The position numbers and the translations under genes are program-made. Under the pieces are notes generated by a model that saw nothing but the letters and a program-made list of their open reading frames with translations, was not told where the DNA came from and did no database searches. From NCBI RefSeq assembly GCF_016889705.1, contig NZ_CP069526.1, positions 1,798,001 through 1,862,000 of the forward strand: 64,000 bases of DNA. The letters run 5' to 3'. Positions within the stretch are counted from its first letter, which is position 1. Each line of letters opens with the position of its first letter. This document shows positions 367 to 17,972 of the stretch, piece by piece. Source of the DNA: Amycolatopsis sp. FDAARGOS 1241 (GTDB lineage Bacteria > Actinomycetota > Actinomycetes > Mycobacteriales > Pseudonocardiaceae).

Positions 367-502
367 CCACCATTCGCTGATCATCGGTTACACTCGCTGC
401 AACGACGCGGACGCCGACACCTCAGCCACTCACGGAAGCTGACACCCCGGCCACTCGGGCGGATGAGACCACTCACTCCACTTGAGACCGGAGGACGGCG
501 TC

Positions 503-1825
503 ATGCCGAACCCGTACCTGACGCGTCTGCGCGAGCAGCACGACGCGCTGCACGCTTCGATCGAGGGCCTCCAGACCCGCGCGGCCGAGGCCAACCGCGA
601 CCTGTCCGACGACGAGTTTCGTTCGGTTACGGACCAGGCGGCGCAGCTGAAGAAGCTGACGGCGCAGATCGAGGACCTGGCCGGCGTCGAGCAGAGCCGC
701 GCCAAGGTCGGCGAGCTGGCCGCGGACCTGGACAAGGGCGCCGAGCAGGGCCAGGAGCAGAACCTCGGCGGCGGCGAGCAGTCCCGCTCGCGCGTCACCA
801 CCCGCGACCGCGACCCCGGGCACTACCGCTCGGTCACCGACGGCGGGCAGCACAGCTTCTTCGGCGACCACTACCGCGCCGTCAAGCACGGCGACGGCGA
901 GGCGAAGAAGCGCCTGGACGAGCACATGCGTGCTGTCACGCAGTCCTCGGGCGGCGCCGGCATCATCCCGCCGAAGTGGCTGACCGACGAGTACCAGGGC
1001 CTCGCGCGGCAGAACCGCGTCGTGGCCGACCTGGTCCGCCACATCGACCTCGGCCAGGACCCGCGCCCGCTGGTGCTGCCGAAGCAGACCGGCGGCACGG
1101 ACGCCAACATCACCACGCAGACCACCGAGGGCGCGAACAACGCCGGGTGGGGTACCGACCGCTACACCAGCGATGTCGACACCCTCACGCCGGTGTTCAA
1201 GGCCGCGTGGCAGGACGTGTCGCGCCAGCTGCTCGACGCCTCGACCCCCGCGGTCGACTCGCTGATCTTCGGCGACCTGCGCGCCGCGTGGGACACCGTC
1301 GTCGAGGCCCTCACCTGCGCCGCGATCCTCGGCGCCACGGGCACCGCGGCCGGCACCACGTTCGCGACCGAGGCCGCGTTCGCCACCAACGCCGCGGCCA
1401 TCGATGCCGTCATCGACGCGCAGACCGCCGTCGCCGGCGACCAGCGCGGCCCGGCCGACCTCGCGGTGATGAACTTCCGCCGCTTCGGCGCGTTCCGCAA
1501 GCTCAAGGACTCGACCAACCGGCCGCTCATGCCGGTGTCGCGCTACAGCCCGCAGAACGCCACCGGTGCCCTCGACAACCGCCTCGTCGGCGACATCGAG
1601 GGCGTGGACGCGGTCGCGAGCTCCGGCGTGCCCACCGCCTACGCCGAGACGTACGCCGTGCTGCGCCGCAACGCGGTGCTGCTCGCCGAGTCGGGCGTGC
1701 AGGACTTCACCTACGAGCAGGCCGGCGGCCCGGCGTTCGTGCGGATGGGCCTGTGGGGCTACGTCGGCACGCTCGTCCGCAACCCGGGCGGCATCTCCAT
1801 CCAGACCGTCACCGCCGCGAGCTGA
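503..1825 (+). CDS. HK97-fold phage major capsid protein
   Basis: A 440-residue protein with the layout of an HK97-type capsid subunit. The first roughly 100 residues are a charged coiled coil that looks like a scaffolding delta domain. The shell domain follows (GGAGIIPPKWLTDEY, then a beta-rich body) and ends with a FVRMGLWGYVGTLVRNPGG strand. It builds the prophage head. I chose the ATG at 503 because GGAGGA at 490-495 is well placed; an upstream TTG at 482 has no such site. It lies between the head protein fragment and the connector genes, as in siphovirus late operons. The delta-domain cleavage site is not obvious. Confidence 0.85.
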   Translation: MPNPYLTRLREQHDALHASIEGLQTRAAEANRDLSDDEFRSVTDQAAQLKKLTAQIEDLAGVEQSRAKVGELAADLDKGAEQGQEQNLGGGEQSRSRVTTRDRDPGHYRSVTDGGQHSFFGDHYRAVKHGDGEAKKRLDEHMRAVTQSSGGAGIIPPKWLTDEYQGLARQNRVVADLVRHIDLGQDPRPLVLPKQTGGTDANITTQTTEGANNAGWGTDRYTSDVDTLTPVFKAAWQDVSRQLLDASTPAVDSLIFGDLRAAWDTVVEALTCAAILGATGTAAGTTFATEAAFATNAAAIDAVIDAQTAVAGDQRGPADLAVMNFRRFGAFRKLKDSTNRPLMPVSRYSPQNATGALDNRLVGDIEGVDAVASSGVPTAYAETYAVLRRNAVLLAESGVQDFTYEQAGGPAFVRMGLWGYVGTLVRNPGGISIQTVTAAS

Positions 1826-1828
1826 CCC

Positions 1829-2182
1829 ATGGCGACCTGGCCACCGCAGCTGGCGGACCTCAAGGCGGACCTGAAGGTGCCCGATGGCACTCAGGGAGAT
1901 GACGCCGTCTTGCAGTCCTGCCTTGACGCTGCGGTGGCCAAGGTCTGCGAGGTCCGGTCCGATGTGGACTATGGCCCGTACCCGATGCCCGGGGCCAAGG
2001 TCCCGGATGCGGACCTGCTGCTCGGCACCATCCGGTTAGCCGGCCGGTGGTTCATCCGCCGCCGGTCGCCGGACGCGCTGGTGAACATGGGCGATATGGG
2101 GTCCGCGCGGATCCCGTCGTTCGATCCGGACATCGAACGGCTGCTCGGCATCGGCCGTTTCCGAGGGCCGGTGTTCGCATGA
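1829..2182 (+). CDS. Head-tail connector/adaptor candidate
   Basis: A 117-residue protein starting 3 nt after the capsid stop. It is mainly helical (LKADLKVPDGTQGDDAVLQ at the N-terminus, then long helices ending in DIERLLGIGRF), which is the pattern of gp6-like head-completion adaptors that dock on the portal ring. No catalytic motif is visible. The position directly after the capsid gene and before a tail-terminator-sized gene supports this role. Its 3' end overlaps the next gene by 4 nt (ATGA), so translation is probably coupled. Family membership is inferred from size, fold pattern and order. Confidence 0.6.
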   Translation: MATWPPQLADLKADLKVPDGTQGDDAVLQSCLDAAVAKVCEVRSDVDYGPYPMPGAKVPDADLLLGTIRLAGRWFIRRRSPDALVNMGDMGSARIPSFDPDIERLLGIGRFRGPVFA

Positions 2183-3840: not shown

Positions 3841-4335
3841 GTGGAGAAAAAGAAGAGCCTCACCGTGAAGGTGCACATCGACGGTGTGCGCGAGGTGCTG
3901 CGCGCGCTGTCGGTGCTGCCGAAGGACGCGCAGAACGCGCTGCGGGACCACTCGTTGGCGCTGGCGCGGAAGCTGGCGCTGAAGGGCGCGGTGGACCTGT
4001 CGCTCAACGGCGGCCCGCAGGGGCCGCTGCTGGCCACCACGGTGAAGGCGGTGCGCGACCGGGTGCCGGTGGTCCAGGCAGGCGGCACGCGCCGCCTCGG
4101 CCGCCACGCGGCGCCGGCATACGGGATGCTGTTCGGCTCCATCTTCGGCATGAACGGCCGCTCCGGCTGGTACTCGGCGAGCCGCTACGCCGGCTCGGCC
4201 GGACGCCAGTACCGGCCGCACCAGGGGCGCGACGCGTACGCGTTCTTCCCGATCATCGAGGGCAGCGCCGAGACGATCTCGCGCGAGTGGCACGCCGCGG
4301 TCGATGACGTGGTCCGCAAGTTCGGGGGCGCGTGA
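3841..4335 (+). CDS. HK97 gp10-like phage morphogenesis protein
   Basis: A 164-residue basic protein starting at GTG 3841 with GAGGGAGG at 3824-3831. The N-terminal half (VREVLRALSVLPKDAQNALR, helical) and the central segment rich in Gly, Arg and Tyr resemble minor neck or tail components of the HK97 gp10 type. Such genes usually lie between connector and tube genes, so the position between chaperone and tape measure is a little unusual. Its stop overlaps the tape measure start (TGATG at 4333-4337), which suggests coupling. Assignment is moderate; no active-site motif is visible. Confidence 0.5.
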   Translation: MEKKKSLTVKVHIDGVREVLRALSVLPKDAQNALRDHSLALARKLALKGAVDLSLNGGPQGPLLATTVKAVRDRVPVVQAGGTRRLGRHAAPAYGMLFGSIFGMNGRSGWYSASRYAGSAGRQYRPHQGRDAYAFFPIIEGSAETISREWHAAVDDVVRKFGGA

Positions 4336-6263
4336 TGGCCGCCGAGCGCACCATCCGGATCAAGTTCGACGGCTCCAGCGAAGGCCTGGTCGCCGCGGCC
4401 GCCGCGGCGCGCGCCGAAATGAAGGCGCTCTCAGACGACGCGAAGAAGCGCAGCAAGGCGCTGAGCGACGTGGGCGCACGCATCGGCGGCATGGCTCGCG
4501 GGGTCCTCAGCCTGGCGCAGAATCTGTCGACCGTGGCGACCGCGGCGAACGTGCTGCCCGTGTTGGTCGCCGGGGTGTTCACGCTGGCCGGTGCGCTGCC
4601 GCTGGCGGTGGCCGGTGGGTTCGCGCTCGCCGGCGTCATGGCGACGATGAAGCTCGGCGCGGACGGCGCGAAACGCGCGTTCGACAAGCTCACGCCGACG
4701 CTGAACACGCTGAAGGCGAACGTCTCCTCAAGCTTCGAGAAGGCGCTGAACCCGGCGGTGCGCAACCTCCAGACGCTGCTGCCGAGGACGACGACGGGGT
4801 TCCAGTCGATCGCGACCGCGATCGGTGGCGTGGCCACGAAGGTGACTGCCTACCTCGCCACTGCCAAGGCCACGAGCCAGATCAACACCATCCTCGGCGG
4901 CACGTCGCGGGTGGTGCAGAACATCGGCGCGTTCCTCGCCCCGGTGATCGCCGCGTTCCTGCGCATCGGCGCCGTGGCTATGCCGATCCTGGTGCAGCTG
5001 ACCAGCGGTATCGGCACCGTCGGTGAGAAATTCAACGCGTTCGTGCAGACCGCGGCGAACAACGGCAGCCTGCAGCAGTGGATCCAGGGCGCGCTCGCCG
5101 CGTTCCAGCAGATCTTCGGCGTGCTCACCGACCTCGGGTCGATCGTGTCGAGCGTGTTCGGCGCGATCCAGGACGCCGGCGGCAGCTCGTTCGGGTTCAT
5201 CGGCCCGCTGATCTCGACCGTGCAGCAGTTCCTCGACTCCGCGCAGGGCCACGACACCCTCGTCGGGTTCTTCCAGTCGCTCAATAGCGTGGCCGGCTCG
5301 GTCTCGCAGGTGGTCGGTGCGCTGCTCGCCGCGATCGGCCCGGCGATCCCGCCGCTGGCGGCGTCGATCGCCAGCCTGGCGAACACGATCTCGGGCATCC
5401 TCGTGCCGGTCATCCAGTTCCTCGCGCCGGTGCTGCAGAACATCGCCAACTTCATCCAGCAGAACACGTCGTGGATCACGCCGCTGGTGATCGCGCTCGG
5501 GCTGTGGGCCGCGGCGCAGTGGGCGCTGAACATCGCGATGGACGCCAACCCCATCGGGTTGATCATCCTGGCGATCGGTGCGCTGATCGCGATCGTGGCC
5601 ACGATCATCACGTATTGGACGCCGATCAAGGACTTCTTCCTCGGCATCTTCAACGCCATCAAGGATGCTGTCGTTGCTGCCGCGAAGTGGATCGGTGATC
5701 GTTTCAGCGACGCCTGGAACTTCATCGTGGGCGTCTGGAACGGCGTCATAGCGTGGTTCCAAGCCATCTGGACCGGCATCAAGGCCGGCGTGGGCCTCGC
5801 CGTGCAGTTCGTGCGCGACCGCTTCTCCGACGCCTGGAACTTCATCAAGAGCGTCTGGGGGAAGGTTAGTTCGTTCTTCTCCGGCATCTGGTCGGGCATC
5901 GGCGACGGGCTGAAGTCTGCGCTGAACGGCGCGATTCGTCTGCTGAACGGCGCGATTCACGGCATTAACAAGATCACCGGCGTGGTCGGCATCCCCGGCA
6001 TCCCGGACATCCCATACCTGGCGAGGGGCGGCACGGCGCGCGGCGGCCGCCCGTACATCGTCGGCGAGCGCGGCCCCGAGCTGTTCGTGCCCGGCCAGAC
6101 GGGGCGCGTCGTCTCGCACCAGCAGAGCTTCGGCGGCCCGCAGCAGATCGTGGTGCCCATCCAGATCGGGGACGAGGTCACGCGGGTCGTGCGGTTCGAG
6201 ATCGACCGCAACACCGGGCAGGTGCGGCGCCTCGCCGGCGCCGGGACAGGGAGCATGAAATGA
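4335..6263 (+). CDS. Phage tail tape measure protein
   Basis: A 642-residue protein starting at ATG 4335. It opens with a charged helical domain (RTIRIKFDGSSEGLVAAAAA), continues with long alanine-rich hydrophobic helices, several of them membrane-segment-like between about residues 60 and 440, and contains two copies of a DRFSDAWNFI module near residues 455-510. The C-terminal region has the RGGRPYIVGERGPELF signature common to tape measure proteins. It sets tail length and is ejected during DNA delivery. It follows the chaperone region and overlaps the next gene by 4 nt. It is short by tape measure standards, implying a tail of perhaps 100 nm. Confidence 0.88.
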   Translation: MAAERTIRIKFDGSSEGLVAAAAAARAEMKALSDDAKKRSKALSDVGARIGGMARGVLSLAQNLSTVATAANVLPVLVAGVFTLAGALPLAVAGGFALAGVMATMKLGADGAKRAFDKLTPTLNTLKANVSSSFEKALNPAVRNLQTLLPRTTTGFQSIATAIGGVATKVTAYLATAKATSQINTILGGTSRVVQNIGAFLAPVIAAFLRIGAVAMPILVQLTSGIGTVGEKFNAFVQTAANNGSLQQWIQGALAAFQQIFGVLTDLGSIVSSVFGAIQDAGGSSFGFIGPLISTVQQFLDSAQGHDTLVGFFQSLNSVAGSVSQVVGALLAAIGPAIPPLAASIASLANTISGILVPVIQFLAPVLQNIANFIQQNTSWITPLVIALGLWAAAQWALNIAMDANPIGLIILAIGALIAIVATIITYWTPIKDFFLGIFNAIKDAVVAAAKWIGDRFSDAWNFIVGVWNGVIAWFQAIWTGIKAGVGLAVQFVRDRFSDAWNFIKSVWGKVSSFFSGIWSGIGDGLKSALNGAIRLLNGAIHGINKITGVVGIPGIPDIPYLARGGTARGGRPYIVGERGPELFVPGQTGRVVSHQQSFGGPQQIVVPIQIGDEVTRVVRFEIDRNTGQVRRLAGAGTGSMK

Positions 6264-8257
6264 GCCCGCCCTACAGTTCGTACGCCGCGCTGGCGGCCGA
6301 GCAGACCGAAGGCGTCGACTACACCCGCACCGCGATCACCCCGACCGGTGTGTCGTGGGCGGCGATCGCCATCCACGGCGGCGGCATCGAGGCCGGCACG
6401 GGAGAGCTGGCCCGGGAGATCGCGGGCACCCGCATGGCGTTCTACGAGTTCGCGGGGATCAAGCCCACCGGCAACAACGACCTGCACATCACGAGCTCAC
6501 TGTTCGACGAGCCGCAGGCGCTCGCGCTGGTCGGCGCGTCCAGCCGCACCGTCTCCTGCCACGGCATGGCCGGCACCGACGGCGTCGCCGAGACCTACAT
6601 CGGCGGCCTGGACGGGCAGCTGCGTGACCTGATCCTGGCCAAGCTCACCGCGGCCGGATTCACCGTCACGGTCGCCTCCACCGAGCTCGCCGGATCCGAC
6701 CCGACGAACATCTGCAACAAGAACAGCCGCAAGGCGGGCGTGCAGCTGGAGATGTCCAACACCCTGCGGGCGTCGTTCTTCCCGGGCGGGGACCTCTCGG
6801 CCGCCAACCGCGCCACCGGCGAGCGCACCGCCACGTTCTACGCCTACGCCGCCGCCGTGCAGGCCGCGGTCATCGAGGCGCTGACCTACGACGACACCAT
6901 CTCCCGGGTGCGGCTGGCCGGCACCGTGCCCGGCGTCAAAGACGTGTTCGCCCGGACCGTGACCGGTGGGTGGGGTGAGTCGACTTCGGGGCACACCTGG
7001 ACCACCAGCGGCGGCAGCACGGCCGACTTCACGGTGTCGGGCGGCTTCGGCCGGCACGCGCAGCCCTCGGCCAACGTGTCGCGCTGGTCGCTGATCGGCC
7101 CGCCGTGCACCGACACCGATTTTGTGATCAGCCTCAGCTCGAACCAGCTGAGCACGGGCGGTTCGCAGTTCCTGCACGTGGCCGCCCGCGCCGCGGACAC
7201 CAGCAATTGCTACCTCGCGCGGGTCGAGCTCAACACCAGCAACGCGGTGCTGCTGACGCTGCGCAAGCGCGTCGCGGGCGTCGAGACGCTGCTCTCCTCG
7301 ACGGTCAACACTGGCCTCACCCACACCGCGGGCGCGACCTACACCGTCCGCTTCCAGGTCACCGGCTCCACGCTGGCAGTGAAGCTCTGGACCACCGCCG
7401 AGCCGGACGCGTGGACGATCACGCTCACCGACAACTCGGTGACCGCGGCCGGGCAGATCGGGGTTCGGTCGCTGCTGTCGAGCGCGAACACCAACACCAG
7501 CCCGACTGCGTCGTATGCGGCGCTGACCTCGGTGGGTGCGGCGACCGTGGAGCGCTCCACCGACGCGATCACCTGGACCACCGTGCGGGGCGGGCTCGCG
7601 CTGCCGGGCAACGCGGGGCTGCCGGTGAACGTCGACGACTACGAGTTCGCCGCCGGTGTGGTCAACCACTACCGGGTGCGGGTGTACGCGCCGACCGGCG
7701 CGACGCTGTTCACCGAGTCGGACACGATCACACCGGTGCTGGACTCGGCGTGGATCAAGAACCCGCAACGCCCGTCGCTCAACCGCAAGGTCACCGTGGC
7801 CGGTATCTCCGACATCACCCGGCCGACGCGCTCGAGCGTCGTCGAGGTGGTCGGGCGGACGCTGCCGGTCGTGATCTCCGACGTGCAGGGCTCCCGCCGG
7901 CTCACCCTCACCGTGATGACGCGGACGCTGGCCGAGGCCGCGGACCTCGACCAGGTGTTCGCGTCCGGGCTGCCGGTGTTCCTCCAGGCACCCGAACTCG
8001 ACGCCGTCGTGCCGACCATGTACGCCAGCGTCGGCGAGGTCACCCTGCGCCGCGGCCAGTCCGTGCGCGCGCCCCGCCGATTCTTCGACCTGCCGCTCAC
8101 CGAGTGCGCCCCGCCCGCATCCACGGTGTACGGCGGGACCTACACGTGGGACGACGTGCTCGCCGACTACGCCACCTGGAACGACGTGCTGGCCAACGTC
8201 GCCACCTGGGACGACCTGGTCAACCAAGTGTCCGATAACGAGGTGGTCGTGCCATGA
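6260..8257 (+). CDS. Tail protein with N-terminal poly-gamma-glutamate hydrolase domain
   Basis: A 665-residue protein with two clear parts. Residues 1 to about 220 match the phage poly-gamma-glutamate hydrolase family (PghP-like zinc peptidases): HGGGIEAGTGE supplies His39 and Glu44, with NDLHITS (His76), SCHGMAG (His101) and QLEMSN (Glu164) as further candidate zinc or catalytic residues. The middle looks like a lectin-type beta sandwich, and residues from about 430 on are a distal-tail-like module ending in repeats of TWDDVLADYATWNDVLANVA. The gene follows the tape measure and overlaps both neighbours by 4 nt. I infer a tail-mounted depolymerase for an anionic surface polymer; the real substrate is unknown. 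Confidence 0.75.
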   Translation: MSPPYSSYAALAAEQTEGVDYTRTAITPTGVSWAAIAIHGGGIEAGTGELAREIAGTRMAFYEFAGIKPTGNNDLHITSSLFDEPQALALVGASSRTVSCHGMAGTDGVAETYIGGLDGQLRDLILAKLTAAGFTVTVASTELAGSDPTNICNKNSRKAGVQLEMSNTLRASFFPGGDLSAANRATGERTATFYAYAAAVQAAVIEALTYDDTISRVRLAGTVPGVKDVFARTVTGGWGESTSGHTWTTSGGSTADFTVSGGFGRHAQPSANVSRWSLIGPPCTDTDFVISLSSNQLSTGGSQFLHVAARAADTSNCYLARVELNTSNAVLLTLRKRVAGVETLLSSTVNTGLTHTAGATYTVRFQVTGSTLAVKLWTTAEPDAWTITLTDNSVTAAGQIGVRSLLSSANTNTSPTASYAALTSVGAATVERSTDAITWTTVRGGLALPGNAGLPVNVDDYEFAAGVVNHYRVRVYAPTGATLFTESDTITPVLDSAWIKNPQRPSLNRKVTVAGISDITRPTRSSVVEVVGRTLPVVISDVQGSRRLTLTVMTRTLAEAADLDQVFASGLPVFLQAPELDAVVPTMYASVGEVTLRRGQSVRAPRRFFDLPLTECAPPASTVYGGTYTWDDVLADYATWNDVLANVATWDDLVNQVSDNEVVVP

Positions 8258-9399
8258 GGCCCGTTACGGATACGTTCCTCGCGTCGGTGCGCGGCTCGCA
8301 CCGGATGATCGCCCGCGCCCGGCTCGTCGCGCCCGGCCAGACCGGCACCGAACCCACCGGGCTCGCGATCCCCGGTGTGTCCGACGAGGGTCTGCTGCCG
8401 ATCAACGGCGGCGACGTGACCACCGACATGACCGCCGATGTGCAGTCCACGCTCGCGCTCACCACGCTCTACCCGTGGCCGGCCGATCCCTTCGCCGCGG
8501 GCACCCCGTACGGGCAGGAAATCTACGTCGAGCGCGGCATCGAGTACGGGCTCGGCACCCGCGAGTACGTGGGCCTCGGGTACTTCCGCATCGACTCGGT
8601 GAAGCAGGCCAACGCACCGTCGGGCACGATCGAGATCGCCGCGTCCGACCGCATGGCGCAGGTGCGCGACGCCCGCAACGTCTCGCCGCAGGTGTTCGGC
8701 GCCGGCAGCTCTGTCGGCGCGTGCATCGATGTCGTGGTGCAGCAGGCGCTGCCGGGCGCGGTCACCGACTACGGCGACTGGGACGCCTACGGCGAGCTGT
8801 TCGCGACCGATCACGTGATGGGTGACGACCGGCTGCCGTTCCTGCAGGACCTGCTCGCCGCCTACGGCAAGTACGGCTTCTTCGACTACCGCGGCGTGTA
8901 CGCCGTGCGCCCGGTGCCGGACCTCACGAAGGTGGCTCCGGTGTGGACGATCGACGCCGGCCGCAACGGCGTGCTCGTCGAGATGCAGCGCACCATCTCC
9001 CGTGACGCCGTCTACAACGTCGTCGTAGCGCGCGGCGAGCCCGTCGGCGAGCTGCCGCCCGTGCAGGGCCTCGCCTACGACGCCGACCCGAGCTCACCCA
9101 CCTACGCGCTCGGCCCGTTCGGCGCGATCCCGACCTACTACAGCTCGTCGTTCATGACCACCGTGGAGCAGTGCACGGCGGCCGCGCTGGCGCAGCTGTC
9201 CAAGGCGACCGGGCTGCCCTACTCGGTGTCGCTCGGCTCGGTCCCGAACCCGGCGCTGGAGGGCTGGGACGTGGTCACCGTGTACAACGGCGTCGACCGC
9301 TCCGAAACCCACGTGCTCGACCGCATCACCTACGGCCTCACCCCCGACTCGTCGATGGGCATGGACACCCGCAAGCAGACCCTGGCGGTGGCAGCATGA
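8254..9399 (+). CDS. Phage minor tail protein, DUF5047-like
   Basis: A 381-residue protein starting at an ATG overlapping the preceding stop. It resembles the DUF5047 family of actinophage minor tail proteins: an early FLASVRGSHRMIARARLV segment, a LPINGGDVTTDMTADVQST stretch, and repeated beta strands through residue 200. The family is usually encoded just after the distal tail gene and is thought to form part of the tail tip or hub. No enzymatic residues are apparent. The 4-nt overlap with the next gene (ATGA at 9396-9399) keeps it in the tail operon. Confidence 0.7.
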   Translation: MRPVTDTFLASVRGSHRMIARARLVAPGQTGTEPTGLAIPGVSDEGLLPINGGDVTTDMTADVQSTLALTTLYPWPADPFAAGTPYGQEIYVERGIEYGLGTREYVGLGYFRIDSVKQANAPSGTIEIAASDRMAQVRDARNVSPQVFGAGSSVGACIDVVVQQALPGAVTDYGDWDAYGELFATDHVMGDDRLPFLQDLLAAYGKYGFFDYRGVYAVRPVPDLTKVAPVWTIDAGRNGVLVEMQRTISRDAVYNVVVARGEPVGELPPVQGLAYDADPSSPTYALGPFGAIPTYYSSSFMTTVEQCTAAALAQLSKATGLPYSVSLGSVPNPALEGWDVVTVYNGVDRSETHVLDRITYGLTPDSSMGMDTRKQTLAVAA

Positions 9400-10088
9400 T
9401 CGCCGGGACGGATGGCGCGCTGCTCGCCGCGCTCATCGCCGAGGCCGGCCAGGGCCCGTCCGGCGCCCGGGACCTGTCCAACTACACCGGGCAGATCGTG
9501 GCGTGGGACGAGATCTCCGGCACCAACGTCGTGCACGTCAACGGCGGCGACATCCCGAACATGCGCGTGGTCGCGTCCGGAATCGGGCTGGCCTACGAGG
9601 TCGGCGACGTTGTGAACATCACCGCCCGCGGCACGCAGTGGTTCATCAACGGCAAGGTCGGCGCGCCCGGCGCCGGAGCAGGAAACCAGATTGCCTCTGG
9701 AGACGTGCCGGCCGACCAGAGCACCTCGTCCACGACCTACACCGACCTGGCCACCTTCGGCCCACAAGTGACCGTCACCATCGGGTCATCGCGGCGAGCC
9801 CTGGTCCTGCTGTCGGCCTTCTTCCAACTCGTCTCCAATGACGTGAACTACGCGGGCGGATGGATGGGCTTCACCGTCACGGGCGCGAGCTCGATCGGCG
9901 TCAACCGAACCATTCAGGCCCAGATCGCCGCCGCCGGACTCGGCACCTTCGGGAGCCGCGCCATGTTGTTCACCGCTGCCGATGGCCTCAACGCTGGCGT
10001 CAACACGTTCACCTGCAAATACCGCGCCGACAACTCGACCTATCCGTGCACGTTCGGCAGCCGGAACATCACCGTCATTCCGTTCTGA
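9396..10088 (+). CDS. Phage tail-tip protein with adsorption-type C-terminus
   Basis: A 230-residue protein starting at ATG 9396 in 4-nt overlap with the previous gene; an upstream in-frame extension is a shadow of that gene. Residues 1 to about 90 look like a small beta-barrel (IVAWDEISGTNVVHVNGGD, then VGDVVNITARGTQWFINGK). The C-terminal 120 residues form a second beta-rich domain (RRALVLLSAFFQLV onward) typical of fibre tips. The arrangement suggests a baseplate-to-fibre connector. No relative can be named with certainty. Confidence 0.55.
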   Translation: MIAGTDGALLAALIAEAGQGPSGARDLSNYTGQIVAWDEISGTNVVHVNGGDIPNMRVVASGIGLAYEVGDVVNITARGTQWFINGKVGAPGAGAGNQIASGDVPADQSTSSTTYTDLATFGPQVTVTIGSSRRALVLLSAFFQLVSNDVNYAGGWMGFTVTGASSIGVNRTIQAQIAAAGLGTFGSRAMLFTAADGLNAGVNTFTCKYRADNSTYPCTFGSRNITVIPF

Positions 10089-11425: not shown

Positions 11426-12388
11426 GTGGCGCTCGGCATCGACATTTACCGCAAGTTCCAGACCGTCACGAGCTGGCCCGCCGTGAAGCGCGCCGGCGTG
11501 ACGTTCGTGTACGTGAAGCTGTCCGACGGCGGCAGCACGCCCGGCGGCGGCCGCGGCGACGCCGAAGTGGCGGGCGCGCGCTCCGTCGGCATTCCCGTCG
11601 GCGGCTACCACTTCGTGCAGGCCAATCCCGGGCCGGCCGCGCAGGCGGACATCTTGCTGGGCGAGGTGCGCCGGCTCGACGCCACCGGGTGTGTGCCGAT
11701 GCTCGACCTCGAGGACAACCCCGCGGGGTCGGGACTGCCGAACATCCCCGACAGCCAGAAAGCCGCGTTCGGCAAGGCGTTCTGCAACCGGGTGGCCGCG
11801 CAGGGTTTCCGTCCGGGCGTGTACCTGAACAACGCGCTCGCGAAGCTGCTGCGCCCGGACAACTGGGGAGTGCCCGGTCTCGTGATCTGGATCGCCCGGT
11901 ACGGCGCCAATCCGGACGCGGCGGCCGGCCGATACGACATCCACCAGTACAGCTCGTCCGGCTCCATCCCCGGCATCACCGCGGCCGGGCTCGACCTGGA
12001 CGAGAGCTACACCGCGGCGCACCTCGGCGCCCGCGCGACGACCCCCGTAACGGAGGAGGACGAGGACATGAGCAGTGACAGCGGAGAAGCGACCGCCGCC
12101 GGACAGTGGGGCAAGCTCCACATCCCAGTGAACGGCGGCCGGTACCTTCGGCTGGCCTCGAGCTACGACCAGCCCATCACGATCGACGGCATTTCGCTCG
12201 TGGGCGACACCCCCGGCAAGGCCGGTCGCGACGTGACGACCGTGCAGGCCGGCGGGAAGGTCGACGCGGACCGGCCCGGCCCGTGGGACCTCGCGGGTGC
12301 GAGCGCCGACTACGCGAACAAGTCGCACGTGGTCGTCCGCTACCAGTGCGCCGGTCCGGTCAAGGGCTGGGTGAACAACCGTGGCTGA
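11426..12388 (+). CDS. GH25 muramidase endolysin
   Basis: A 320-residue endolysin that should cleave the MurNAc-GlcNAc bond of peptidoglycan at lysis. Residues 1 to about 200 are a GH25 barrel: GIDIYRKFQ provides the first catalytic Asp, VPVGGYHFVQ-like and MLDLEDN (the DxE motif) the others, and YDIHQYSSSGSIPGI the C-terminal strand. After an acidic linker (EEDEDMSSDSGE) comes a beta-rich domain of about 105 residues that probably binds the wall. Start is GTG 11426, one base after the preceding stop. No signal peptide is present, so export depends on a holin. Confidence 0.88.
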   Translation: MALGIDIYRKFQTVTSWPAVKRAGVTFVYVKLSDGGSTPGGGRGDAEVAGARSVGIPVGGYHFVQANPGPAAQADILLGEVRRLDATGCVPMLDLEDNPAGSGLPNIPDSQKAAFGKAFCNRVAAQGFRPGVYLNNALAKLLRPDNWGVPGLVIWIARYGANPDAAAGRYDIHQYSSSGSIPGITAAGLDLDESYTAAHLGARATTPVTEEDEDMSSDSGEATAAGQWGKLHIPVNGGRYLRLASSYDQPITIDGISLVGDTPGKAGRDVTTVQAGGKVDADRPGPWDLAGASADYANKSHVVVRYQCAGPVKGWVNNRG

Positions 12389-16617: not shown

Positions 16618-16697
16618 GGGAACCTCTCGGAACTTGGTCGGTGCGTCCCACGTACGGCCCATGATCGGTGTTCCAGTGCTGGTCAGAGGCAAAAATG

Positions 16698-16718
16698 CGG
16701 CAGACTATATGTCTGCCG
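16698..16718. promoter_or_regulatory. Perfect 21-bp dyad, operator candidate
   Basis: CGGCAGAC at 16698-16705 and GTCTGCCG at 16711-16718 are exact inverted copies around TATAT at 16706-16710. The dyad ends 21 bp before the start of the ProA-like gene. The AT centre in a GC-rich region may double as a -10 element, so a bound regulator would block the promoter directly. No regulator gene is adjacent on the right; the XRE and PadR-like genes are 1.6 kb or more to the left. Confidence 0.6.
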
Positions 16719-16739
16719 AACGCGCGGAGGGAGACGACG

Positions 16740-17972
16740 ATGGACGAGGTCACGAAGGCCGTCGAGGAGTGCGCGCGGGCGGCCAAGCTGGCCGCGCCGT
16801 CGCTGGCCAGAGCCACCGAAGAGGCCGTGGACGCGGCGCTGGTTGGCATGGCGGAGCGGCTCGTCGAGCACCGGGACGAGGTGCTCGAGGCGAACCGTGC
16901 CGACGTCGCCAAGGCGCGAGAGGACGGGATGAGTGCCGGTCTGCTCGACCGGCTGACCATCACGCCCGAGCGGCTCGACGGCATGGCCGAGCAGCTGCGG
17001 CTGCTGGCCGGCGCGCCGCACCAGGAGCGGACCGTCGAGGTGTCCACGTTGGACGGCGGGCTGCGGCTGGTGGAACGCCGGCGGCCGGTGGGCGTCATCG
17101 GTGCGAACTACGAGGCGCGGCCCAACGTGACGGTCGACGTGGCGTCGCAGCTGGTGAAGTCGCGCAACGCCGGGGTGCTGCGCACCGGCTCGGCGGCGCT
17201 GGGTTCGGCGCAGCGGCTGCGGGACACGGTCATCGCGCCGGCGCTCGCGGCGGCCGGGATCGACCCGGACGTGGTGCAGCTGGTGCCGCGCGTCGAGCGG
17301 GAAGCGGCGTCGGCGCTGGTCCGGCTGCCCGGGCTCGTGCCGCTGGTGATCCTGCGTGGCAGCGGCGACAGCACGCGCGCGCTGGCCACGGAGGCGGCCG
17401 TGCACGGCGTGCGGACGCTGGCCCACGCGGACGGTGGCGGTGTGCTGTACGTCGACGCCGCGGCCGACGCGGGCAAGGTGCGCGACCTCGTGTACGCGAG
17501 CCTCGACCGGCTGGGCGTGTGCAACCGGCTCAACCTGCTGCTCATCCACGACGAGGTGCACGACACGGTGTGGCCGTCGATCAGCGCGGCGCTGGCCGAG
17601 CGGGGCGTCACGCCGTCGCTCGCGCCCCACGAGCACGCCATCGGCTACGAGTGGGCGCTGGACTCGGACCGCGAAGCGACCGTGACGGTCGAGCGTGTGA
17701 CCGGGCTCGAGCAGGCCGTGGAGATCGCGAACGAGCGCACGTCCGGCCTCGCGGCGGGCATCGCCACCGAGGACGAGACGGCGGCGGGCGCGTTCTTCGA
17801 CGGCTACACCGGCACGGGCGTGTTCTGGAACGCGCCGACGCGGCTGCTCGATGGCTTCAAGCTGCTCGCCGTACCTGAGACCGGGATCAACCTCGACCGT
17901 GTGCCGGGGCCGCGGGGGCCGGTGACGTACACCGACCTGTATGTGCGGCAGTACGCCGTTCAACCAGCATGA
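16740..17972 (+). CDS. proA: ProA-like glutamate-5-semialdehyde dehydrogenase, divergent
   Basis: A 410-residue aldehyde dehydrogenase-fold enzyme of the ProA (gamma-glutamyl phosphate reductase) family, which makes glutamate semialdehyde from glutamyl phosphate with NADPH in proline synthesis. RRPVGVIGANYEARPNVTVD is the family cofactor segment and GVCNRLN carries the nucleophile Cys261. It departs from typical ProA where the GGSEA segment is RTGSAALGSA and where the conserved FGLGAEIGIST block is replaced by FKLLAVPETGINLDRV. So it may be a paralogue with another substrate. GGAGGGAG precedes ATG 16740; the 3' end overlaps the next gene by 4 nt. Confidence 0.72.
   Translation: MDEVTKAVEECARAAKLAAPSLARATEEAVDAALVGMAERLVEHRDEVLEANRADVAKAREDGMSAGLLDRLTITPERLDGMAEQLRLLAGAPHQERTVEVSTLDGGLRLVERRRPVGVIGANYEARPNVTVDVASQLVKSRNAGVLRTGSAALGSAQRLRDTVIAPALAAAGIDPDVVQLVPRVEREAASALVRLPGLVPLVILRGSGDSTRALATEAAVHGVRTLAHADGGGVLYVDAAADAGKVRDLVYASLDRLGVCNRLNLLLIHDEVHDTVWPSISAALAERGVTPSLAPHEHAIGYEWALDSDREATVTVERVTGLEQAVEIANERTSGLAAGIATEDETAAGAFFDGYTGTGVFWNAPTRLLDGFKLLAVPETGINLDRVPGPRGPVTYTDLYVRQYAVQPA

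Follow-up and report, generated by a model that had tools for sequence, protein, structure and literature searches.

Why does a tail gene of a prophage in a soil actinobacterium encode what looks like a capsule cutter of the type best known as a separate enzyme of Bacillus phages? The question is raised by an open reading frame (ORF), 6260-8257 (+), in a 64,000-nucleotide stretch of the genome of Amycolatopsis sp. FDAARGOS 1241 (NZ_CP069526.1, positions 1,798,001 to 1,862,000), the whole of which is referred to here as the window. The ORF encodes a 665-residue tail protein with an N-terminal poly-gamma-glutamate hydrolase (PGH). The best reading of our results, and in our judgement a probable one, is that this protein is a tail-mounted hydrolase of poly-gamma-glutamate (gamma-PGA) that opens a coat made by the host capBC genes.

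The tail protein and its hydrolase domain

ATGA overlaps join the gene at both ends, with the tape measure gene (4332-6263) upstream and a tail gene (8254-9399) downstream. Its place after the tape measure gene, given in the initial annotation, is correct: a phrog_305 protein is encoded directly upstream, and two further tail genes follow. The parts of the protein are as follows.

6272..6853, + strand, PGH domain (PF05908), residues 5-198, by profile match and fold
6374 (H39), 6389 (E44), 6485 (H76), 6491 (T78), 6560 (H101), 6749 (E164) and 6767 (R170), + strand, codons of PGH residues
6938..7534, + strand, CBM66-like (concanavalin-type) jelly-roll lectin domain, residues ~227-425, by phrog_24476 and fold
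7535..8119, + strand, conserved C-terminal tail scaffold, residues ~426-620, by phrog_16363, a PHROG without a functional name
8138..8227, + strand, three short helical repeats at the C-terminus, residues ~627-656, of lower model confidence

The initial annotation had proposed a PghP-like zinc hydrolase with His39, Glu44, His76, His101 and Glu164, and a profile search against the PGH family bears this out. The protein matches PF05908 over profile positions 1-190 of 191 with 186.5 bits, far above the curated cut-off of 22, and structure comparison indicates a PGH fold for the modelled N-terminal domain. H39, E44 and H101 are the zinc ligands and H76 and E164 further catalytic residues, while T78, S79 and R170 are the equivalents of PghL Thr79, Ser80 and Arg171. 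These five residues together with T78 and R170 are invariant in 13/13 sequences of alignment A2, where S79 varies, and the equivalents of the same seven are invariant in all 38 sequences of alignment A3. According to the published passages available, Thr80 of PghP and Arg171 of PghL (T78 and R170 here) are required for cleavage, and Arg171 anchors the third glutamate of gamma-PGA. Judged by its sequence, the domain very probably cuts gamma-PGA.

The modules said to be fused to the enzyme fared unequally. The lectin-like one stands: structure comparison of the model points to a CBM66-type jelly roll, with no Pfam lectin or carbohydrate-binding module (CBM) profile matching the protein at E<=1. 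Its sequence identity to CBM66 (4B1M), the central fibre gp20 of mycobacteriophage Douge (8ZDP) and TM4 gp23 (9N6A) is just 12-19%. The distal-tail-like module is unsupported, in that the PHROG matches include no distal tail protein (Dit) family and the fold search, in which the C-terminal part was not folded or searched by itself, is dominated by residues 95-429, its alignments falling mostly on the PGH and the lectin. Foldseek also returned coronavirus spikes and neurotoxin binding domains, which were discarded for a TM-score to the query of 0.2 or less. The three 'ATWxDVLA'-like helical repeats that close the protein are also present in the homologs of A2.

In the mechanism that we propose, the zinc-dependent PGH would be the head of the tail protein, the sugar-binding-type jelly roll its neck, and the C-terminal scaffold would fix it to the tail. 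When the phage meets a cell, the tail-held enzyme would hydrolyse the gamma-glutamyl bonds of a surface polyglutamate, the product of the host capBC (pgsBC) operon, and the path to the wall would be opened. Tail-spike depolymerases are likewise tail-held enzymes that cut the capsule before infection. However, those are beta-helix proteins acting on sugar, whereas the enzyme described here is of zinc peptidase type and would act on a polypeptide capsule.

Polyglutamate synthase genes in the host and in related hosts

The host genome encodes a PgsB/CapB protein (TIGR04012, 378.8 bits against an NCBI equivalog cut-off of 222.7), directly followed by a PgsC/CapC protein (PF14102, 120.9 bits against a cut-off of 27). 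These genes lie at L014:5295-10533 (host genome C1, ~4811294-4816532), in the order HAMP-domain protein, pgsB/capB-capC and NlpC/P60 protein, and this locus is likely a polyglutamate operon of Amycolatopsis. Adjoining capBC is a divergent gene (L014:4271-5212, minus strand), whose product has a hydrophobic stretch at its N-terminus and, in its C-terminal part, an HVEMS..R motif that resembles PGH. We do not claim it as a host PGH-like gene: it has no Pfam or NCBIfam match, and its hhalign alignment to A2 spans 52 columns with a probability of 17%.

CapC was found above cut-off in 27 of 80 Amycolatopsis genomes, 106 of 392 Streptomyces genomes (the genus holding the Streptomyces records TBY4 and NWU339) and 21 of 396 genomes across the phylum. 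Among carriers of a related PGH, the CapC search covered 13 of the 21 genome loci, leaving out seven loci from outside the actinobacteria and also L021, whose strain is that of L018; CapC was present in 10 of the 12 genomes tested from these 13. It was also present in 10 of 11 distinct genomes with a tail-associated PGH (the window, A. roodepoortensis, L016, L017, L018, L019, L022, L024, L027, L028 and G700). With genus-matched backgrounds, the binomial P is ~9e-5 for the 10 Streptomyces and Amycolatopsis genomes, Dactylosporangium being left out, and ~3e-4 without G700; the 'tail-associated' class and the score gap were picked after the data had been seen, and host kinship is ignored in this and the following statistics. 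Streptomyces genomes with a PF05908 match of at least 170 bits carry CapC in 9 of 12 cases, as against 97 of the 380 others (Fisher 6e-4), the 12 including both tail and separate-ORF contexts. That any PF05908 protein follows CapC was rejected, because low-scoring Streptomyces genomes have CapC below background (10/69, as against 87/311 without PF05908). Twelve of the 80 Amycolatopsis genomes have the tail scaffold; CapC is present in both of those with PGH and in two of the ten without. A second, lower-scoring PF05908 group (L003-L008, L171 and L173) was seen in six Amycolatopsis genomes, none of which has CapC; L171 and L173 are surrounded by chromosomal-looking genes. This group may have a different substrate.

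Several points weigh against a polyglutamate coat as the target, beginning with the late choice of class and the disregard of kinship just mentioned. CapC was not found in one tail-PGH host, S. odonnellii (L017; a draft genome), or in four hosts whose PGH is a separate ORF (the metagenome-assembled genome RM46, G579, G696 and G796). The PgsC of the window's host reaches 70.9 bits on the NCBI PgsC model, under the equivalog cut-off of 96.45, and no CapA-like gene was found adjoining its capBC, three PF09587 genes lying elsewhere in the genome. Production of gamma-PGA is not established in the genus, and the polymer is here one predicted from genes. Moreover, the PGH domain matches 215 of 50,697 phage records (Bacillus 139, Staphylococcus 74, Listeria 1 and one named just 'Phage'), none of them an actinophage by name; the laboratory hosts from which actinophages are isolated may be without the polymer.

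The five hosts without CapC, the uncertain standing of gamma-PGA in the genus and the PF05908 proteins of CapC-poor genomes (the 10/69 above) would also fit a different substrate, the same tail enzyme acting on another gamma-glutamyl or amide-linked wall polymer, for example the gamma-D-Glu bonds of peptidoglycan stem peptides or a teichuronopeptide-like polymer. We consider this unlikely in view of the invariant gamma-PGA contact residues, among them the arginine which in PghL holds the third glutamate in place, and of the enrichment of CapC among tail-PGH hosts. The initial annotation had suggested a tail-mounted PGH of an actinobacterial prophage directed against a glutamate-type surface polymer, and the place of the gene among tail genes, the conserved contact residues, the host PgsB/CapB and PgsC/CapC genes and the tail-module relatives described below support it, although presence in the virion and enzyme activity are as yet predictions.

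The tail scaffold as an exchange platform

A protein 74% identical to that of the window already exists in A. roodepoortensis records. Searching with the whole protein gave 233 matches, and 14 of the 120 listed, the window protein included, cover at least 98% of the query. Searching with the scaffold (residues 426-665) gave 209, and among the 120 listed homologs PF05908 was found on six, again including the window protein, PF09423 (PhoD) on one, PF13472 (GDSL lipase) on one, PF02018 (CBM) on four and PF04151 on one, while 107 have no Pfam domain. In P0155 and P0174 a PhoD-type phosphatase or a GDSL esterase sits on the tail scaffold in the place of PGH. The enzyme of both forms stops before a common 'SRVR' junction, and the lectin is present further along in both, the GDSL form having other sequence between the junction and the lectin. 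Another Amycolatopsis protein, P0016, has PGH, a different middle domain and the same scaffold as the window protein. The tail scaffold is an exchange platform and PGH an exchangeable cassette, with a swap computed at one junction.

A profile of 13 sequences detected 65 loci in viral contigs and 21 in genomes, and PGH relatives are located in the tail modules of other actinobacterial phages and prophages. The neighbouring genes that were tested encode tape measure (L015, L022 and L028), baseplate wedge (L069, L072 and L161) and Dit or minor tail proteins (L057). In searches confined to open-licence full texts, no account of an actinophage with a tail-fused PGH was found.

PghP of Bacillus phage phiNIT1 (3A9L), PGH of phage PM1 (21DC) and PghL/YndL of B. 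subtilis (5ONJ) are single-domain proteins, in contrast to the window protein, in which PGH is fused to a tail scaffold. Five of the 215 matching phage records were inspected. In the two from Bacillus (019DV004 and PM1) PGH lies outside the tail genes, but in all three from Staphylococcus it lies inside the tail or baseplate module, as in the window, being a separate ORF in S-CoN_Ph18 and vB_SepM_BE24. In the third, Alsa_1, CDS0013 (L196:5845-7704) is a tail-module gene for 619 residues with an N-terminal PGH half and a C-terminal GDPD phosphodiesterase. The statement of the initial annotation that PGH enzymes are mostly separate secreted proteins thus holds for the two Bacillus phages and not generally. 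That tail-module PGH is confined to actinophages was rejected on the three Staphylococcus records, none of which has the fusion of PGH, lectin and scaffold; no description of these Staphylococcus arrangements was found in the literature passages searched. Having PGH in a tail module is not in itself new; the differences here lie in its fusion to lectin and scaffold, in the exchange platform and in the split lectin described below.

Another conceivable main role of the enzyme is in release, in which PGH would be made late and free the progeny from a polyglutamate matrix without being mounted on the virion. One review, in the part available, describes phiNIT1 PghP as soluble, apparently non-structural and released at the burst (PMC6966330), while another groups it, in the part available, with virion-associated enzymes (PMC5380687). 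The separate PGH ORFs of ~210 residues in some phages, and the position of PGH outside the tail genes in both Bacillus records, would agree with release. For the window protein we think this improbable: PGH shares a single polypeptide with a tail scaffold, which the majority of the listed homologs have with no PGH attached, and the gene starts with a codon that overlaps the tape measure stop codon.

In all 23 distinct related loci of the following list PGH is a separate ORF within the lectin domain of the tail protein, and the jelly roll is divided between two adjacent ORFs.

L016-L022, L024, L027, L041-L044, L046, L048-L052, L054-L056 and L059, split-lectin loci

The same lectin is unsplit in gp24 of Streptomyces phage Rooney, a minor tail protein of 1313 residues (window residues 226-425 on Rooney 1078-1279, 45% identity), which, unlike the window protein, has no PGH and a different, larger tail body. 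Stop readthrough or frameshifting that joins the two ORFs was rejected as a general explanation because their relative reading frame differs among loci. No description of a split lectin of this kind was found in the open-licence literature.

A wider and more tentative proposal, which we hold to be possible but somewhat less than evenly favoured, is that the occupant of the tail slot follows the host coat, with PGH where hosts have capBC and, in other cases, a PhoD-type phosphatase or a GDSL esterase, or else no enzyme that is recognised. PGH would be docked, in Streptomyces-type phages, by completion of the lectin fold rather than by fusion: of the two polypeptides that rebuild the lectin, the tail would carry one and the enzyme the other. 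Many actinobacteria would then have undescribed polyglutamate coats.

PghP-like genes were surveyed in 2015 (PMC4497714). In the passages available, that survey found phage copies solely in phages of Bacillus and Staphylococcus, listed Streptomyces among the frequent carriers, and considered phage infection an unlikely source of the copies in genera from which gamma-PGA is not reported. In contrast, we find PGH genes in the tail modules of actinobacterial phages and prophages, whose hosts mostly have capBC. If the reading of a tail-mounted gamma-PGA hydrolase is true, the capBC operons of Amycolatopsis and Streptomyces produce a surface polymer that is relevant to phages; it becomes testable whether actinobacterial capBC operons build a polyglutamate at the cell surface through which phages have to cut. 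Tail-anchored gamma-PGA hydrolases could then serve as tools, and the lectin that is split in nature could serve as a joint for docking.

The prophage around the gene

The other features recognized in the window are as follows.

482..1825, + strand, major head protein (phrog_2263)
1829..2182, + strand, head-tail connector (phrog_5938)
4332..6263, + strand, tail length tape measure protein (phrog_305, E 3e-54)
8254..9399, + strand, tail protein (phrog_1887)
9396..10088, + strand, minor tail protein (phrog_7565), start codon provisional
11426..12388, + strand, endolysin (phrog_291)
16696..16711, no strand, candidate right attachment site (attR), a 16-bp direct repeat matching a site near the integrase

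Portal, terminase and integrase genes lie upstream of the window, and we take the 665-residue product to be a minor tail protein of an Amycolatopsis prophage, siphovirus-like to judge from the gene order. A decayed or host-domesticated (tailocin-like) tail locus, which might be entertained for a prophage known from computation alone, is very improbable, since there are open frames for integrase, terminase, portal, capsid, tape measure and endolysin, the PGH active site is intact and the candidate 16-bp attachment repeat flanks the element.

The partner of this repeat lies ~85 bp past the 3' end of the integrase ORF (L174:6246; genome 1784346). The chance expectation of such a repeat is 0.015 for equal base frequencies, and the pair suggests a prophage of ~30.4 kb. 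The candidate attR is near the start of ORF 16668-17972, which may mark the integration site.

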